Origin: an uncultured Rhodospirillales bacterium
GTDB lineage: Bacteria > Pseudomonadota > Alphaproteobacteria > Acetobacterales > Acetobacteraceae
DNA length: 33,617 bases
Assembly (NCBI GenBank): GCA_903823665.1
Contig: CAIJTR010000158.1
Coordinates: 1 to 33,617 of the forward strand
Reading direction: 5' to 3'
The position numbers and the translations under genes were made by a program. This document shows positions 3,912 through 15,028 of this stretch, piece by piece (the first letter of the stretch is position 1; every line of letters begins with the position of its first letter). The notes beneath the pieces are model-generated. The model saw only the letters and a program-made list of their open reading frames with translations, was not told the DNA's origin and made no database searches.

Positions 3912-6398
3912 TCAGTCGTTTCGCAGCAGCGGAGCCACTTTTGTGCGCAATGCCTGTTCGGTGCCGAAATAGCCGAACACCAGCATCAGCGCCATGCAGC
4001 CGAGAATGGTAAGGGCAAGCGTCCCGGGTAGGAACACCCAGGTGGTGGCCATGACGTAATGCGTGACCGCGAAGCTGGCGGCGGTGCCGATCAGTGCCGC
4101 AATGATTCCGGCGGTGAGGCCGAGCACGCCGAATTCCACCAGCCAGGCGGCGCGGATCTGGGCGCGGGAGGCGCCGAGGCTTTTCAGGATCACGGCTTCG
4201 TTGATCCGCCTGCGCTGCCCGGAGGCGACGGCACCACCCAGAACCAGCGTGCCTGCAATCAGCGTAAGTGAGCCGGTGGCAGCGAGGGCGGCGCTGAGCT
4301 GGCCGAACAGCACACCGACGGCGGCCAACACATCGGCGACGCGAATGCCGGACACGTTCGGCAGGGCTTGGGTGACGGCGCGGAGAAGGCGGGGTTGGCT
4401 CGCATCGGTTGCGCGGACGGTGGCGATATGCGTGTGCGGTGCGCGATCCAGCAGGCCGGGGCTTGCGACCATAGCGTAGTTGATGCCCATGCTGCGCCAA
4501 GCGATGTCTCGCAAATTGGCGACTTTGAGGTCGATGTCGCGGCCGAGGACGTTGACGCGGATGGTGTCTCCTACTGTGACGCCCCAGCCGCGGGCAAGAT
4601 TGGCGTCGAATGAGACCAAGGGCGGGCCGTTATAGTCCGCGGGCCACCACGTGCCTGCAACGATGGTGGTGCCATCTGGCGGGGTGGCGGCGTAGGTGAG
4701 GCCGCGATCCCCGCGCAGGGCCCAGACCGTGTCTGGCGTGGCTTTGACTTGTTCTGCTGGGACGCCGCCGACGGCGACGACGCGGGCGCGCAGGTTGGGC
4801 ACTTCCTTCATGTCGATCACGCCGGGTTCGGCTGCCAGAATCTGGCGGAACTGCGCCATCTGGGTGTTCTGGATGTCGATGAAGAAGAAGCTGGGGGCGT
4901 TGGCGGGGAGCTGGTCGGCCACCTGCGCCTGAATGTTGCCCTGAATGAGCGCCACGGCCGCGAGGGTGGACAGGCCGAGGCCGACGGAGACAAGCATCAG
5001 CGGCGTGGCGTTGCCGGGGCGGCTTAGGTTGCCAAGGCCCAGTCTCGCCCAAGGCTTGCTGGCATGCGTGCCGCGAATGGTGCGGATCAGCGCCCAGGCC
5101 CCGATGCGGAACAGGGCGAGGGTGGCCACGGCGGCTCCGCAGAAGCCGATGGCGAATTTCCACTCGGTGGCGGTGACGATGGTCAGCGCGATGAGGCAGG
5201 CGGAGAGCAGCAATGTGGTCAGCACCAGCCAGCGCTTGGGCTTCCCGCCATCCGGCAGCACCGCATCACGGAACAGGGCGGCGCCGGAGATGCTCATGGC
5301 GCGTGACAGCGGCCAGAGGGCGAAGGTGGCGGCGGTGAGCGCTCCGAAGCCGGCGGCGAGGGCGAGGGGTTTCCAGTAGAAGCCGCTGATCGGCGGGACC
5401 GGCAGCACCTCCACCAGCAGGCGGGAGGCGAGCATGGGCAGCAATCCGCCGATGAGCACGCCCACACCGATGCCAATGGCCGCAAGTGCTCCCACCTGAA
5501 GGGCGGAGCTGGCGAAGACCAGGCGGGGTGACGCCCCGAGGCAGCGCAGGATGGCGATGCTGCGCGCGCGGGCCTCAAGCCACGAGCGCACGCCGTTGGC
5601 GACGCCGATGCCGCCGACGAGCAGCGAGGTGAGGCCCACCAGCGTCATGAACAGGCTGGTGCGGTCGAGGAACTGACGAATGCCGGGGGCGGCGTCGCTG
5701 CTGTCGCGGATGCGCCAGCCAGTGCCGGGGAATTCCCGCCTAAGATCGGCGATGGCGGCCTTGATGTTGGTGCCGTCCGGGAAGCGGGCGCGGAGTTGGT
5801 GTTCGATGATGGCACCGGGCTGGATGAGGCCGGTGGCGTCCATGTCCTCGCCGCGCATCAGCACGCGCGGGCCGAGGATGGACGGGCTGGAGACAGAGTC
5901 GGGCTCGTTGGTGATGACGCCGCCGAGCTTGAGCTTGGCGTTGCCGATTTGCACGGTGTCGCCAACTTTCAGACCGAGGCGATCTAATACCAGCGGGTCG
6001 ACGGCGATGCTGCCGGGGGCAAGGGCTCCGACAGGGGCGAAGGTTGCTGTGCCGATGAGTGGCCAAGCGGCGTCTACCGCCTTGAGTTCCACCAACAGGC
6101 GTTCGCTGGAGGGGGCGGCGAGCATGGAGCGCATGCCGACGCCGTCGGTGATTGCGGCACCGCGGCCTTGCAGCCAGTCGTGCAGGCTGGCGGGAAGCGG
6201 TTCGTAGCCACCTTGGACGGAGATGTCACCGCCGAGGATGCGGGTGCCGTCTGACGCCAGCCCAGCGTCGATCCCGGCGCGCAGGCTGCCGACGGCGGCG
6301 ATGGCGGCGACGCCCAGGGCGAGGCAGGCGAGGACGACTCGCAATCCGCGCACACCGGCCCGCAATTCACGGCGCGCGATGCGCAGCGCCATCATCAT
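3912..6398 (-). CDS. ABC transporter permease, FtsX/YbbP type
   Basis: An 828-residue permease of the MacB/FtsX class. There is one hydrophobic helix near the N-terminus, a large extracytoplasmic domain, a first FtsX block of three helices (roughly residues 250-370), two further helices around 390-440, a second periplasmic domain, and a C-terminal FtsX block (about 690-820). Ten helices and this length match YbbP, which pairs with the ATPase YbbA. Its ATG overlaps the YbbA stop as ATGA, so the two are translationally coupled. The start has three consecutive ATG codons; the first is used here. Substrate is unknown; in related bacteria the locus sits beside tesA, as here, which suggests lipid or envelope traffic (inference). 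Confidence 0.9.
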   Translation of the reverse strand: MMMALRIARRELRAGVRGLRVVLACLALGVAAIAAVGSLRAGIDAGLASDGTRILGGDISVQGGYEPLPASLHDWLQGRGAAITDGVGMRSMLAAPSSERLLVELKAVDAAWPLIGTATFAPVGALAPGSIAVDPLVLDRLGLKVGDTVQIGNAKLKLGGVITNEPDSVSSPSILGPRVLMRGEDMDATGLIQPGAIIEHQLRARFPDGTNIKAAIADLRREFPGTGWRIRDSSDAAPGIRQFLDRTSLFMTLVGLTSLLVGGIGVANGVRSWLEARARSIAILRCLGASPRLVFASSALQVGALAAIGIGVGVLIGGLLPMLASRLLVEVLPVPPISGFYWKPLALAAGFGALTAATFALWPLSRAMSISGAALFRDAVLPDGGKPKRWLVLTTLLLSACLIALTIVTATEWKFAIGFCGAAVATLALFRIGAWALIRTIRGTHASKPWARLGLGNLSRPGNATPLMLVSVGLGLSTLAAVALIQGNIQAQVADQLPANAPSFFFIDIQNTQMAQFRQILAAEPGVIDMKEVPNLRARVVAVGGVPAEQVKATPDTVWALRGDRGLTYAATPPDGTTIVAGTWWPADYNGPPLVSFDANLARGWGVTVGDTIRVNVLGRDIDLKVANLRDIAWRSMGINYAMVASPGLLDRAPHTHIATVRATDASQPRLLRAVTQALPNVSGIRVADVLAAVGVLFGQLSAALAATGSLTLIAGTLVLGGAVASGQRRRINEAVILKSLGASRAQIRAAWLVEFGVLGLTAGIIAALIGTAASFAVTHYVMATTWVFLPGTLALTILGCMALMLVFGYFGTEQALRTKVAPLLRND

Positions 6399-11822: not shown

Positions 11823-13031
11823 ATGAACCGCAGAGAATGGCTCGCTGGCTCCGCCGCTGCCCTGGCCGCCGTAACCCCGCTTCGTCGTGCCCTGGCCGAA
11901 GGGGCGGCCGTCCATCCGGCCCTGGCGCTGGGCACGAAGGAGGAGGCGGTGTTCGACGCGCTGCCGGGCAAGCAGAAGCTGATCAAGCTGAGCTATCGGC
12001 CGCCGAATTACGAATCACCGCTTTCGGCGTTCCGCACGCCGATCACGGCGAACGACCAGTTTTTCGTGCGCTATCATCTGTCGCAAATCCCGACCATGGC
12101 CGATCTGGCGGATTGGAAGCTGACAGTGGACGGCGATGCGGCGGGCAAGCCGCTTAGCCTCACGCTCGATGATCTCAAGAAGCTGCCGCAGAGCGAGGTG
12201 ACGGCGGTGTGCCAGTGCTCTGGCAACCGGCGTGGCATGGCGAGCCCGCATGTGGCCGGTGTGCAATGGGGGCCGGGGGCGATGGGCTGTGCCAGTTGGA
12301 CGGGACCGAAATTGGCCGACGTGTTGGCGCTGGCTGGTGTGAAGGCCAACGCGATTGAGGTGGCGTTTCGTGGGGCGGATAACGCGCTGATTGAGGCGAC
12401 GCCCGCGTTTGCCAAATCCATTCCGGTCAGTCGGGCGCTGGATCCGAACACGATCGTGGCCACCGGCATGAACGGCGTGCCGCTGCCGATCTGGAACGGC
12501 TATCCTGCGCGCATTGTGGTACCGGGTTGGACGGCGACGTATTGGATGAAGCACATCGCCCGTATCAGCGTCAGCAGCCAGAAGCTCGATAATTTCTGGA
12601 TGAAGACGGCGTATCGGGTGCCAACCGGCTTGTTCCCCGGCAGCGACTTCCCCTCGCAGGACAATGCGACCAACCGGCCGATCACTGATATTGTGCTGAA
12701 TTCGCTGGCGACGTCACATGCCGATGGGGACACGGTGCGGGGCGCTGGATTTACGCTTTCGGGCTTTGCCTGGGACAATGGCACCGGGATTGCGCGAATG
12801 GAGTTCTCGATCAATGACGGGGCGACCTGGGGCGTGGCCATGATGGGCATCTCGGACGGGCCGTTTGCATTTCAGACCTGGAGCACGCAGCTTGCTGCGT
12901 CGCCCGGCCCGCTGACGGTGTTGATCCGCGCGGTGTCGAAATCTGGTGCTGTGCAGCCGGATAAGGCGAGCAGCAATCCCGCTGGTTATCATCACAATGC
13001 TGTCCAGCGCCTGTCGCTGGTGGCTGTATAA
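11823..13031 (+). CDS. sorA: Sulfite dehydrogenase molybdopterin subunit, SorA/SoxC-like, Tat-exported
   Basis: A 402-residue enzyme of the sulfite oxidase family that should oxidise sulfite to sulfate in the periplasm, using a molybdenum cofactor. The N-terminus MNRREWLAGSAAALAAV is a twin-arginine signal. The molybdenum ligand cysteine is Cys132 in VCQCSGNRRG; GMNGVPLP, NGYPARIVVPGW and WMKHIARI are family landmarks, followed by a C-terminal dimerisation domain from about residue 285. Start ATG 11823 has GGGAAGAG upstream. The next gene, 11 bases on, encodes a small c-type cytochrome, the SorA/SorB arrangement of sulfite:cytochrome c oxidoreductases. SoxC is the alternative, but no other sox gene is present. 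Confidence 0.85.
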   Translation: MNRREWLAGSAAALAAVTPLRRALAEGAAVHPALALGTKEEAVFDALPGKQKLIKLSYRPPNYESPLSAFRTPITANDQFFVRYHLSQIPTMADLADWKLTVDGDAAGKPLSLTLDDLKKLPQSEVTAVCQCSGNRRGMASPHVAGVQWGPGAMGCASWTGPKLADVLALAGVKANAIEVAFRGADNALIEATPAFAKSIPVSRALDPNTIVATGMNGVPLPIWNGYPARIVVPGWTATYWMKHIARISVSSQKLDNFWMKTAYRVPTGLFPGSDFPSQDNATNRPITDIVLNSLATSHADGDTVRGAGFTLSGFAWDNGTGIARMEFSINDGATWGVAMMGISDGPFAFQTWSTQLAASPGPLTVLIRAVSKSGAVQPDKASSNPAGYHHNAVQRLSLVAV

Positions 13032-13042
13032 AGGGCCCCGCC

Positions 13043-13330
13043 ATGCGCTCGATGATCGTTATCGCCGGTATTGTGGCGTTGGCTTTGCCGGCTTTGGCCG
13101 ATGAGCAGCCCGTGGTTCTCAAAGAAGCACCGGGTCTGGTGCAGATCACCGTCAATTGCTCGGGCTGTCATAGCCTTGATTATGTGCGGATGAACGCGCC
13201 GTTTCTGACCGCCGATGCCTGGAAGGCCGAGGTGGGCAAGATGCGTGCGGCCTATGGCGCTGCGATCGACGACGAGGACAGTGCCAAGATCATCGCCTAT
13301 CTCGCGGCCAATTACGGTCCGGCCTCCTGA
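13043..13330 (+). CDS. sorB: Small c-type cytochrome, SorB-like electron acceptor
   Basis: A 95-residue periplasmic cytochrome: signal peptide MRSMIVIAGIVALALPALA, then a haem-attachment site CSGCH at residues 39-43 and a candidate distal methionine (Met50 or Met68). Its size and place directly after the molybdenum subunit identify it as the probable electron acceptor of the sulfite dehydrogenase, passing electrons on to the respiratory chain. The stop codon forms a CTGA overlap with the apparent start of the PPK2 gene. Confidence 0.83.
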   Translation: MRSMIVIAGIVALALPALADEQPVVLKEAPGLVQITVNCSGCHSLDYVRMNAPFLTADAWKAEVGKMRAAYGAAIDDEDSAKIIAYLAANYGPAS

Positions 13331-14169
13331 TCACCGTAGCATCAGGTCATGGGTTTGACCTGGCCGATCATGACGCGGCGCTGAAGCCGCCGATTGACAG
13401 GGATGAGGGCGAGAAGCGGCTAGCGAAGGCCGCTGCCACGATTGCCGACCGTCAGGATTTGATGATGGCGCGGCAGAGCTGGTCGATGCTGGCGATTTTT
13501 CAGGGCATGGATGCGGCGGGCAAAGACGGCACGGTGGCACATGTGTTCGACCGGGTGAATCCGTCCGGCATCATCGTGACCAGCTTCAAAGCCCCGTCGG
13601 AGGAAGAGAAGCGGCATCACTTCCTGTGGCGCATCCATCGTGCGGCCCCGGCGGCAGGCCTGATCGGGGCGTTCAACCGAAGCCATTACGAGGACGTGTT
13701 GGTGCCGCGGGTGCATGCCGGGCTACTCAAGGAGGACCATCTGCCGCAGGCGATGATGGACGACGATATTTGGAAGCGACGGCTGGCGGACATCGTCCAT
13801 TTCGAGGACATGCTCGTTCATAACGGCACGTTGGTGCACAAGTTCTTCTTGCACATCTCACCCGAGGAGCAGCGCAGTCGATTGCTGGACCGCCTGGATG
13901 ACCCAGCCAAGCATTGGAAGTTCAGCCCGGCGGATTTGGGCGAGCGGGCGTTTTGGAAGCGCTATCAGGCCGTCTACACTGAGGCGATAGCCGCCACCGC
14001 CACCCCGGATGCGCCGTGGCACATCATTCCAGCTGATCACAAATGGTATGGCCGGATGCTCGTGGCGGAGATTTTGGCGGGGCATTTGGAGGCGTTGGAT
14101 CTTTCCACACCGCCAGCCACTGTGGCTGAGTTGAAGGCGATGGCGATCGCCCGGAAGGCTTTGCGGTAG
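13327..14169 (+). CDS. Polyphosphate kinase 2 family protein, probable CTG start
   Basis: PPK2 enzymes move phosphate between polyphosphate and nucleotides. The frame shows Walker A FQGMDAAGKDGT, SFKAPSEEEKRHHFLWRIH, and FNRSHYEDVLVPRVH, closest to class III (AMP/ADP-phosphorylating) members. Family homology (HGFDLADHDAALKPP) begins about 35 codons upstream of the first ordinary start, TTG 13459, and no ATG, GTG or TTG exists in that stretch. The CTG at 13327 overlaps the sorB stop as CTGA, a one-base variant of the usual ATGA coupling, so I infer a CTG start giving 280 residues. If it is not used, the protein starts at 13459 (236 residues) without its N-terminal segment but with Walker A intact. 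Confidence 0.85.
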   Translation: MITVASGHGFDLADHDAALKPPIDRDEGEKRLAKAAATIADRQDLMMARQSWSMLAIFQGMDAAGKDGTVAHVFDRVNPSGIIVTSFKAPSEEEKRHHFLWRIHRAAPAAGLIGAFNRSHYEDVLVPRVHAGLLKEDHLPQAMMDDDIWKRRLADIVHFEDMLVHNGTLVHKFFLHISPEEQRSRLLDRLDDPAKHWKFSPADLGERAFWKRYQAVYTEAIAATATPDAPWHIIPADHKWYGRMLVAEILAGHLEALDLSTPPATVAELKAMAIARKALR

Positions 14170-14242: not shown

Positions 14243-14974
14243 TCAGGAATGGTGTTCGGTGCCAGCTGACAAGAGCGATGCGATTTCGCTGATCAGTTTG
14301 CGGCGCATGGCCCGGCCGAAGGATTGGAAGTCGTGGACCTCCAGCACGAAGCTGCCGGGGCCGCCGATGACATGCTCTCGATACCAATTGGTGAGGCCGC
14401 CTGCTGGTGCCACATGGGCGAAATTGTAGTTCACTGGGCGGTCGTTGATGATGGTGAGGCCGTTGATGACGATGCCCTGTTTCAGCGCGTCATCGCGTGC
14501 GTCATTGATGTTGCGCCCCGCGTTGTTGGTGCCGTCTCCGCACACGTCAATCACGTGGCGGGTGGCTTCGAATGGCAGTTCGCCGAGTAATTTGACGGCC
14601 GCGTCGATGCCCGAGCTGATGGCGGTGCGGCCGGCGAAGCTGCGGGGCAGTTCGCCCAGTTTCTCGGCGAAATCGCGCGCGGTTTCGAAGTCTCGGATGA
14701 TGGTGAAGCCGATGACGGTGCGGACCTGCGATTCACCGGCAAATTCGACGTATGCCACCGCGATGGCACCGTTGGGGCCGTTGTGGATGGCGTTGAGCAC
14801 GGCGGGATCAAGAAATGCGGCCCCGGTGCCCTTTTTCTCCAGATCGTATTCGCTGTCATCGATGGAGCGGGAGACGTCGGTCACCAGAACCAGCGCCAGA
14901 TCGACCTGCTCGGCCGCGCGGGCCGAGTGGAGGCAAAGCAGCACGGCCAAGATGAGGGTGCCAGCGAACTTCAT
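14243..14974 (-). CDS. DUF1194 protein, exported VWA domain
   Basis: A 243-residue exported protein: signal peptide MKFAGTLILAVLLCLHSARA, then a von Willebrand factor A-like domain with the metal-site motif DVSRS at residues 33-37 and a second metal-loop region at GRTAISSGID. It matches the alphaproteobacterial DUF1194 family, whose function is not established; such domains usually mediate metal-dependent protein binding. ATG 14974 is preferred over the upstream TTG because it starts the signal peptide exactly. The gene is convergent with ppk2 and sits just upstream of the next gene's end only by position; mgtC ends 54 bases away on the same strand. Confidence 0.85.
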   Translation of the reverse strand: MKFAGTLILAVLLCLHSARAAEQVDLALVLVTDVSRSIDDSEYDLEKKGTGAAFLDPAVLNAIHNGPNGAIAVAYVEFAGESQVRTVIGFTIIRDFETARDFAEKLGELPRSFAGRTAISSGIDAAVKLLGELPFEATRHVIDVCGDGTNNAGRNINDARDDALKQGIVINGLTIINDRPVNYNFAHVAPAGGLTNWYREHVIGGPGSFVLEVHDFQSFGRAMRRKLISEIASLLSAGTEHHS

Positions 14975-15028
14975 GGCGGTATCGTCACGCAAAGTGGTGG
15001 ACGAATACAAACCAAATCTTGTGCGGAT

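Follow-up and report, generated by a model that had tools for sequence, protein, structure and literature searches.

Organization of the sorA-sorB-ppk2 locus

We analyzed a stretch of 33,617 nucleotides (the window) from an uncultured Rhodospirillales bacterium, contig CAIJTR010000158.1. On its + strand, a sorA-like gene, a sorB-like gene and a gene for a PPK2-family polyphosphate kinase (ppk2) follow one another, and the three presumably form an operon in which ppk2 is the third gene. The features of the locus are listed below.

11823 to 13031, + strand: sorA-like sulfite dehydrogenase catalytic subunit; ATG 11823 was picked by reading, and GTG 11802 gives a longer frame
13043 to 13330, + strand: sorB-like c-type cytochrome; stop codon TGA at 13328-13330; coding score +41
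13326 to 13346, + strand: small inverted repeat CCTGAT/ATCAGG, which would pair the stop/start region in RNA; fold z-score -1.76
13327 to 13329, + strand: CTG as the candidate start of ppk2, forming CTGA with the sorB stop; in the ortholog L042, ATG occupies this position relative to the sorB stop
13330 to 13332, + strand: alternative near-cognate start ATC, whose A is common with the sorB stop (TGATC); CTGATG occurs at 13 of the 28 sampled CTGA junctions
13327 to 14169, + strand: ppk2 (class III-like PPK2); 280 codons if CTG 13327 is the start; stop codon at 14167-14169
13459 to 13467, + strand: first standard in-frame codons TTG, ATG and ATG, corresponding to ppk2 residues 45-47

The sorA-like gene scores 385 bits against the SorA profile NF052245, under its cut-off of 600, and exceeds the cut-offs of the Pfam profiles Oxidored_molyb and Mo-co_dimer. 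The sorB-like gene matches the SorB profile NF052246 with an E-value of 2.6e-20 and 72 bits, under the cut-off of 93. Beyond ppk2, and convergent to it, lies a gene for a DUF1194 protein (14243-14977, - strand).

The ppk2 product resembles class III PPK2 enzymes

The predicted ppk2 product matches PF03976 with 228.5 bits (cut-off 22.3) and, from residue 3 on, TIGR03709 with 338.9 bits (cut-off 247.2), while its score of 301.7 against the narrower profile NF042973 (ADPpolyPPhtase) falls under the cut-off of 450. An AlphaFold2 model (32 sequences) has a pLDDT of 94.1, and its top structural match in the PDB is 6ang, with a TM-score of 0.93 and 42% identity. Judged by profile and modeled fold, the product is predicted to belong to the PPK2 polyphosphate kinase family, and in both fold and sequence it is like the class III PPK2 enzymes of Cytophaga hutchinsonii (6ang) and Meiothermus ruber (5o6k).

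Relative to most of the 32 aligned proteins, the window's PPK2 has a shorter N-terminus; many of them start some ten residues further out. The model is ordered from residue 2 onward, with a strand spanning residues 2-4 and a helix spanning residues 25-49, and blocks within residues 1-50 have mean pLDDT values of 91-98. Given this modeled strand and helix, the fold seems to include the residues before 45. The Walker-type motif GMDAAGKDG lies downstream of the codons at 13459-13465.

A second PPK2-like gene (C95; 36% identity) is found elsewhere in the same genome. PPK2 relatives that are 41-42% identical also occur on two IMG/VR contigs filed as viral (L153 and L154), which may be host DNA.

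ppk2 lacks a standard start codon before its conserved N-terminus

The ppk2 frame is open from position 13180; TTG 13459 is its earliest ATG, GTG or TTG, and ATG 13462 and ATG 13465 come next. The PPK2 N-terminal sequence HGFDLADHDAALKPP sits upstream of all three codons, confirming that ppk2 has no standard in-frame start before its conserved N-terminus. A preliminary description of this DNA had placed the N-terminal sequence upstream of any in-frame ATG, GTG or TTG and had noted that CTG 13327-13329 overlaps the sorB stop at 13328-13330 as CTGA, one base from ATGA; our coordinates agree with it on both points. Standard gene finders accept only ATG, GTG and TTG, and they would place the ppk2 start at TTG 13459 or at one of the ATGs next to it, losing at least 44 residues of the conserved domain.

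We surveyed 65 ppk2 loci, the window's included, for a standard in-frame start before residue 9. The set combines 30 loci (paralog L002 excluded), 9 loci (L042 excluded, as it repeats L003) and 26 loci. They are the best-scoring loci rather than all matches: a first search matched 71 of 100 genomes and a later one, at a cut-off of 1e-60, 310 of 397, with the best loci used. A standard start was present in 63 of the 65, a lenient count, since chance starts in open upstream frames would inflate it; L016 is truncated at a contig edge, and the window's ppk2 is alone in having none. With a standard start in 63 of 65 loci, its absence in the window is more than chance. The CTGA start site is known from one genome only, and we recognized no second isolate of the window's species among 10 public-contig ppk2 loci, a set from which records of the window's own genome may be omitted.

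Coding signal and the nearest ortholog point to a start at the sorB stop

The nearest ortholog of the window's ppk2, 60% identical, lies in G007, a Rhodospirillales MAG of the same genus (contig JANYFG010000038.1; locus L003, the same as L042). G007 has the same sorA-sorB-ppk2 order, and its ppk2 starts at the ATG of an ATGA on the sorB stop. The SorB C-terminus reads ANYGKAE in G007 and ANYGPAS in the window, at the same position, and the window's ppk2 is without six codons that are present in G007 just after the start.

A codon-usage measure derived from 603 kb of this genome, for which ppk2 was excluded from the final training genes, gives the ppk2 frame a score of -33 over 13180-13326 and +13 over 13330-13458, so that the sign flips at the junction. 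Moreover, the differences between the window and G007 over the first 43 aligned codons are distributed 15/13/32 among codon positions 1, 2 and 3, as in coding DNA. Identity between the two is 20/43 in these first aligned codons versus 145/236 in the remainder. Conserved sites are changed in 5 of 83 columns in the window's PPK2 versus 6 of 85 in the ortholog, with no excess.

Overall, the ATGA at the same place in the ortholog, the onset of the coding signal and the modeled ordered N-terminus support a start of PPK2 translation at or very near the sorB stop. These same three lines of evidence uphold one part of an earlier claim, that CTG 13327 is the only sensible start, by placing the start at the junction; the claim had overlooked ATC 13330. 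Both CTG 13327 and ATC 13330 overlap the sorB TGA, and neither is a standard start codon.

Stop-start overlaps in this genome

Within 603 kb of this genome, in which we called genes with a custom codon-usage script rather than a published gene finder, 109 of the 463 stops of called genes read CTGA, so a CTG at the sorB stop is no evidence by itself. We identified 106 NTGA junctions with a fitting downstream frame: 49 ATGA, 19 GTGA, 10 TTGA and 28 CTGA. Overlaps of the ATGA, GTGA and TTGA kinds are common in this set, which favors a restart at the sorB-ppk2 junction. In 27 of the 28 CTGA junctions a standard start follows 1 to 15 codons on, 13 times as CTGATG, and the sample gives no sign of a CTG-start habit in this genome. 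The window holds the sole CTGA junction without a standard start until codon 44 further on. It is one base from ATGA and, with TGATC at the sorB stop, one base off a TGATG overlap, and both of these are frequent in the sample.

Coding signal precedes any standard start in 3 of the 459 called genes whose left end falls within one of the sampled stretches, namely ppk2, L105/L149 and L070. L105 (the same as L149) is an EcsC-like gene on the - strand (19659-19018) with no ATG, GTG or TTG before its conserved part; an in-frame TAA lies seven codons upstream, and two same-genus relatives have an ATG there. In the glycosyltransferase gene L070 (4443-5638, + strand), the N-terminal part and the body are apparently in different frames, joined near 4555, which on reading is probably a frameshift or indel. 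Since these other flagged genes occur at about the same rate (3/459 in all), decay or error is a fair rival explanation for ppk2. One more gene, L068, was flagged as start-less in a survey of 350 kb and dropped out of the 603 kb survey; it lies near a contig end.

The sorA-sorB-ppk2 cluster in other genera

We searched 66 ppk2 loci (the 65 above and L042) for sorA and sorB; most of them extend just 1.5 kb 5' of ppk2, so that a more distant sorB would be missed. The two genes adjoin ppk2 in four genomes from at least three genera: the window's, G007, G193 (locus L075) and G101 (locus L083), the last two being from the same family as the window and from other genera. The ppk2 of L075 starts with an ATG 12 bases past the sorB stop and that of L083 with a GTG 21 bases past it, in neither case with an overlap, and both proteins have the longer N-terminus that is usual in the family. 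Among these loci, sorB and ppk2 overlap only in the window's genus, as ATGA in G007 and as CTGA in the window. The cluster therefore recurs beyond the genus, and because the genes of L075 and L083 adjoin without overlap, the overlap is not general. The preliminary description had proposed looking in close relatives for an ATGA at this site: G007 has it; in G193 and G101, from other genera, sorB lies next to ppk2 and the two do not overlap. Two further genomes of the window's genus, G005 and G004, also carry a sorB relative; about 46 and 152 bases beyond it the contig ends, no ppk2 occurs in that space, and their ppk2 matches sit on other contigs, which leaves these genomes uninformative on the junction.

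The ATGA of G007 is the closest point of comparison for the CTGA of the window and may be the older of the two. It is not proven to be ancestral, given the non-overlapping starts of L075 and L083 and the six codons absent after the window's start, and the window's lineage may have lost a start lying further on, along with the six missing codons.

Initiation signals and RNA folding

The predicted Shine-Dalgarno duplex before CTG 13327 has an energy of -2.9 kcal/mol. This is about the median (-3.0) of 855 sites used as internal controls (quartiles -5.5, -3.0 and -1.7), a comparison based on 350 kb of the genome rather than 603 kb. The duplex before the ATGA of the G007 ppk2 reaches only -1.7, so a weak Shine-Dalgarno sequence is not peculiar to the CTG.

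Folding predictions give the ppk2 start codon an unpaired probability of 0.01, a value as low or lower in 10 of the 106 junctions, the window included. The fold energy at the window junction ranks 28 of 106, and RNA of the ortholog in G007 does not show a fold of the CCTGAT/ATCAGG type. With this energy rank and an ortholog that lacks the fold, a special RNA hairpin is a weak explanation for the missing start, even with a start codon that ranks with the most paired ones. There is a weak case that the hairpin would favor opening by ribosomes leaving sorB and hinder fresh initiation. We also found a second inverted repeat, CAGGTCA/TGACCTG (13342-13363), that overlaps an arm of CCTGAT/ATCAGG, so that only one of the two hairpins could form at a time.

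A model for ppk2 initiation

We propose that the ppk2 coding sequence begins at the sorB stop, with CTG where G007 has the ATG of ATGA. Ribosomes finishing sorB would restart at one of two near-cognate codons, CTG 13327 or ATC 13330, with no clear Shine-Dalgarno sequence ahead of it, and full-length PPK2 would be made at low yield, with an output that should depend on sorB translation. Taken as a whole, low-yield restart at one of these two junction codons is in our view on balance probable. CTG 13327 is the more likely of the two, by our judgement about three to one. We infer the restart itself, the codon used, the coupling to sorB and the low yield. Restart at CTG is disfavored by the poor performance of CTG as a start, by the weak Shine-Dalgarno sequence and by the predicted pairing of the start in a hairpin. 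If the CTG does work, a conserved enzyme can be translated from a stop overlap with neither a standard start nor a clear Shine-Dalgarno sequence, which bears on the weight of start-codon identity for restarting ribosomes.

Alternative explanations

A recent base change or small deletion may instead have removed the ppk2 start, leaving a decaying gene with trace translation at most. The EcsC-like gene L105/L149 is likewise without a start and L070 is apparently frameshifted, so that broken genes occur at a similar rate in this genome, and the second PPK2-like gene, C95, might make the loss bearable. Moreover, the six codons absent relative to G007, and the L075 and L083 starts that lie 12 and 21 bases past the sorB stop, leave room for a start to have been deleted. 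Against this, the rest of the ppk2 frame is intact and its conserved sites show no excess change, although a young loss would look alike. We regard a lost start as unlikely.

Internal initiation at TTG 13459, ATG 13462 or ATG 13465, yielding a shortened PPK2 of 234 to 236 residues, strikes us as quite improbable. It would use standard codons, with an AGGA (13454-13457) located 4 and 7 bases 5' of the two ATGs and a duplex energy of -4.1 kcal/mol, and the shortened protein would keep GMDAAGKDG and score 317 bits to TIGR03709. However, such a start would remove the strand at residues 2-4 and most of the helix at residues 25-49, which are modeled with high confidence, and both the coding signal and the third-position divergence reach upstream of 13459. 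The AGGA itself falls in the codons CAG GAT (Gln-Asp), and Gln-Asp or Gln-Glu is found in many aligned relatives; the duplex energy of -4.1 is unremarkable against the internal-control quartiles.

A more elaborate form of junction restart, in which the near-cognate start is kept on purpose, is very doubtful. A start too weak to act by itself, lying across the sorB stop and tucked into a small hairpin, would be opened only as ribosomes come off sorB. PPK2 would then amount to a small, constant share of SorB, at a level that tracks IF3, whose gene infC appears to start at ATA in this genome.

We see only a slim chance that the base at 13327 (or 13332) is wrong, whether it was misread, misassembled or taken from a minor strain variant, and that ATGA or TGATG stands there in the actual population. 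A single base separates the site from each of these frequent overlaps, and the draft genome, in 211 contigs, has one apparent indel in L070. Yet single-base substitutions generally do not often survive in a consensus, and the six-codon gap relative to G007 at the same junction implies that the region has truly changed.

Other candidates were rejected: a frameshift from sorB into ppk2, which is in frame -1 to sorB, as no slippery heptamer was seen by reading before the stop and the resulting fusion would presumably carry an exported cytochrome; the out-of-frame ATG 13349, which is followed by only 11 codons before a TGA; and an N-terminal piece in another frame, as in L070, since the upstream sequence is sorB's own frame up to its stop and the G007 protein begins at the same stop.

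Comparison with known systems

Low-yield restart at CTG 13327 or ATC 13330 would resemble the termination-reinitiation at ATGA and TGATG gene pairs, for which coupling is reported as validated for 14 pairs in Haloferax volcanii and E. coli (Huber et al, 2019, PMC6728339; Huber et al, 2023, PMC10666635). The contribution of the Shine-Dalgarno sequence is described there as varying from gene to gene (PMC6728339). A 2025 article (PMC12548453) presents RNA unfolding and restart as models of coupling, and recounts that IF3 overexpression lowered coupling in one study while IF3 was required in another. For near-cognate codons, CUG is quoted from other work as making up 0.024% of bacterial start codons and giving 0.86% of AUG output (PMC11497404), and the output of an ATT start is given as about 0.3% (PMC10666635). 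By one account, CTG, ATT and ATC are not enriched at the start sites of Mycobacterium tuberculosis (PMC9094748), and reinitiation at non-canonical starts has been described in a eukaryotic system (PMC4648390). We recognized no report of this CTGA ppk2 case among the papers listed in literature searches, and among the matches listed for sorAB with PPK2, polyphosphate kinase 2 was not mentioned. With a start at the junction, the co-directed sorB-ppk2 pair would have the same 4-base (or 1-base) stop/start overlap as the ATGA/TGATG systems; unlike in these systems, that start would be CTG or ATC rather than ATG, GTG or TTG, and coupling is a prediction here.

The gene infC is known for its rare start codon. 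The infC of this genome (L099; G000:C109, - strand, positions 2034-2032 of the locus) has an ATA six bases after an AGGAG. In a set of 30 genomes, the in-frame codon behind AGGAG is ATA in 25, CTG in 2, ATC in 1 and ATT in 1, and in all 29 of these the AGGAG stands 6 to 9 bases before the near-cognate codon; an AGGAG with a near-cognate codon was not found in the remaining one of the 30 infC genes, which has ATG. Many of the 30 also carry an in-frame standard codon within the first 15 codons, but in 10, this genome's included, no standard start of any kind precedes the match. From the AGGAG and these 10 genes, the infC of this genome appears to use a near-cognate ATA start. As in the model for ppk2, a near-cognate codon (ATA in the infC of this genome, CTG in that of two relatives) apparently starts a conserved protein in infC. 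The two differ in that infC has a strong Shine-Dalgarno sequence (AGGAG), whereas ppk2 has a weak one, a stop overlap and one known case. Set beside these systems, the proposed ppk2 start would be an uncommon instance of an already known type of start rather than a new mechanism.
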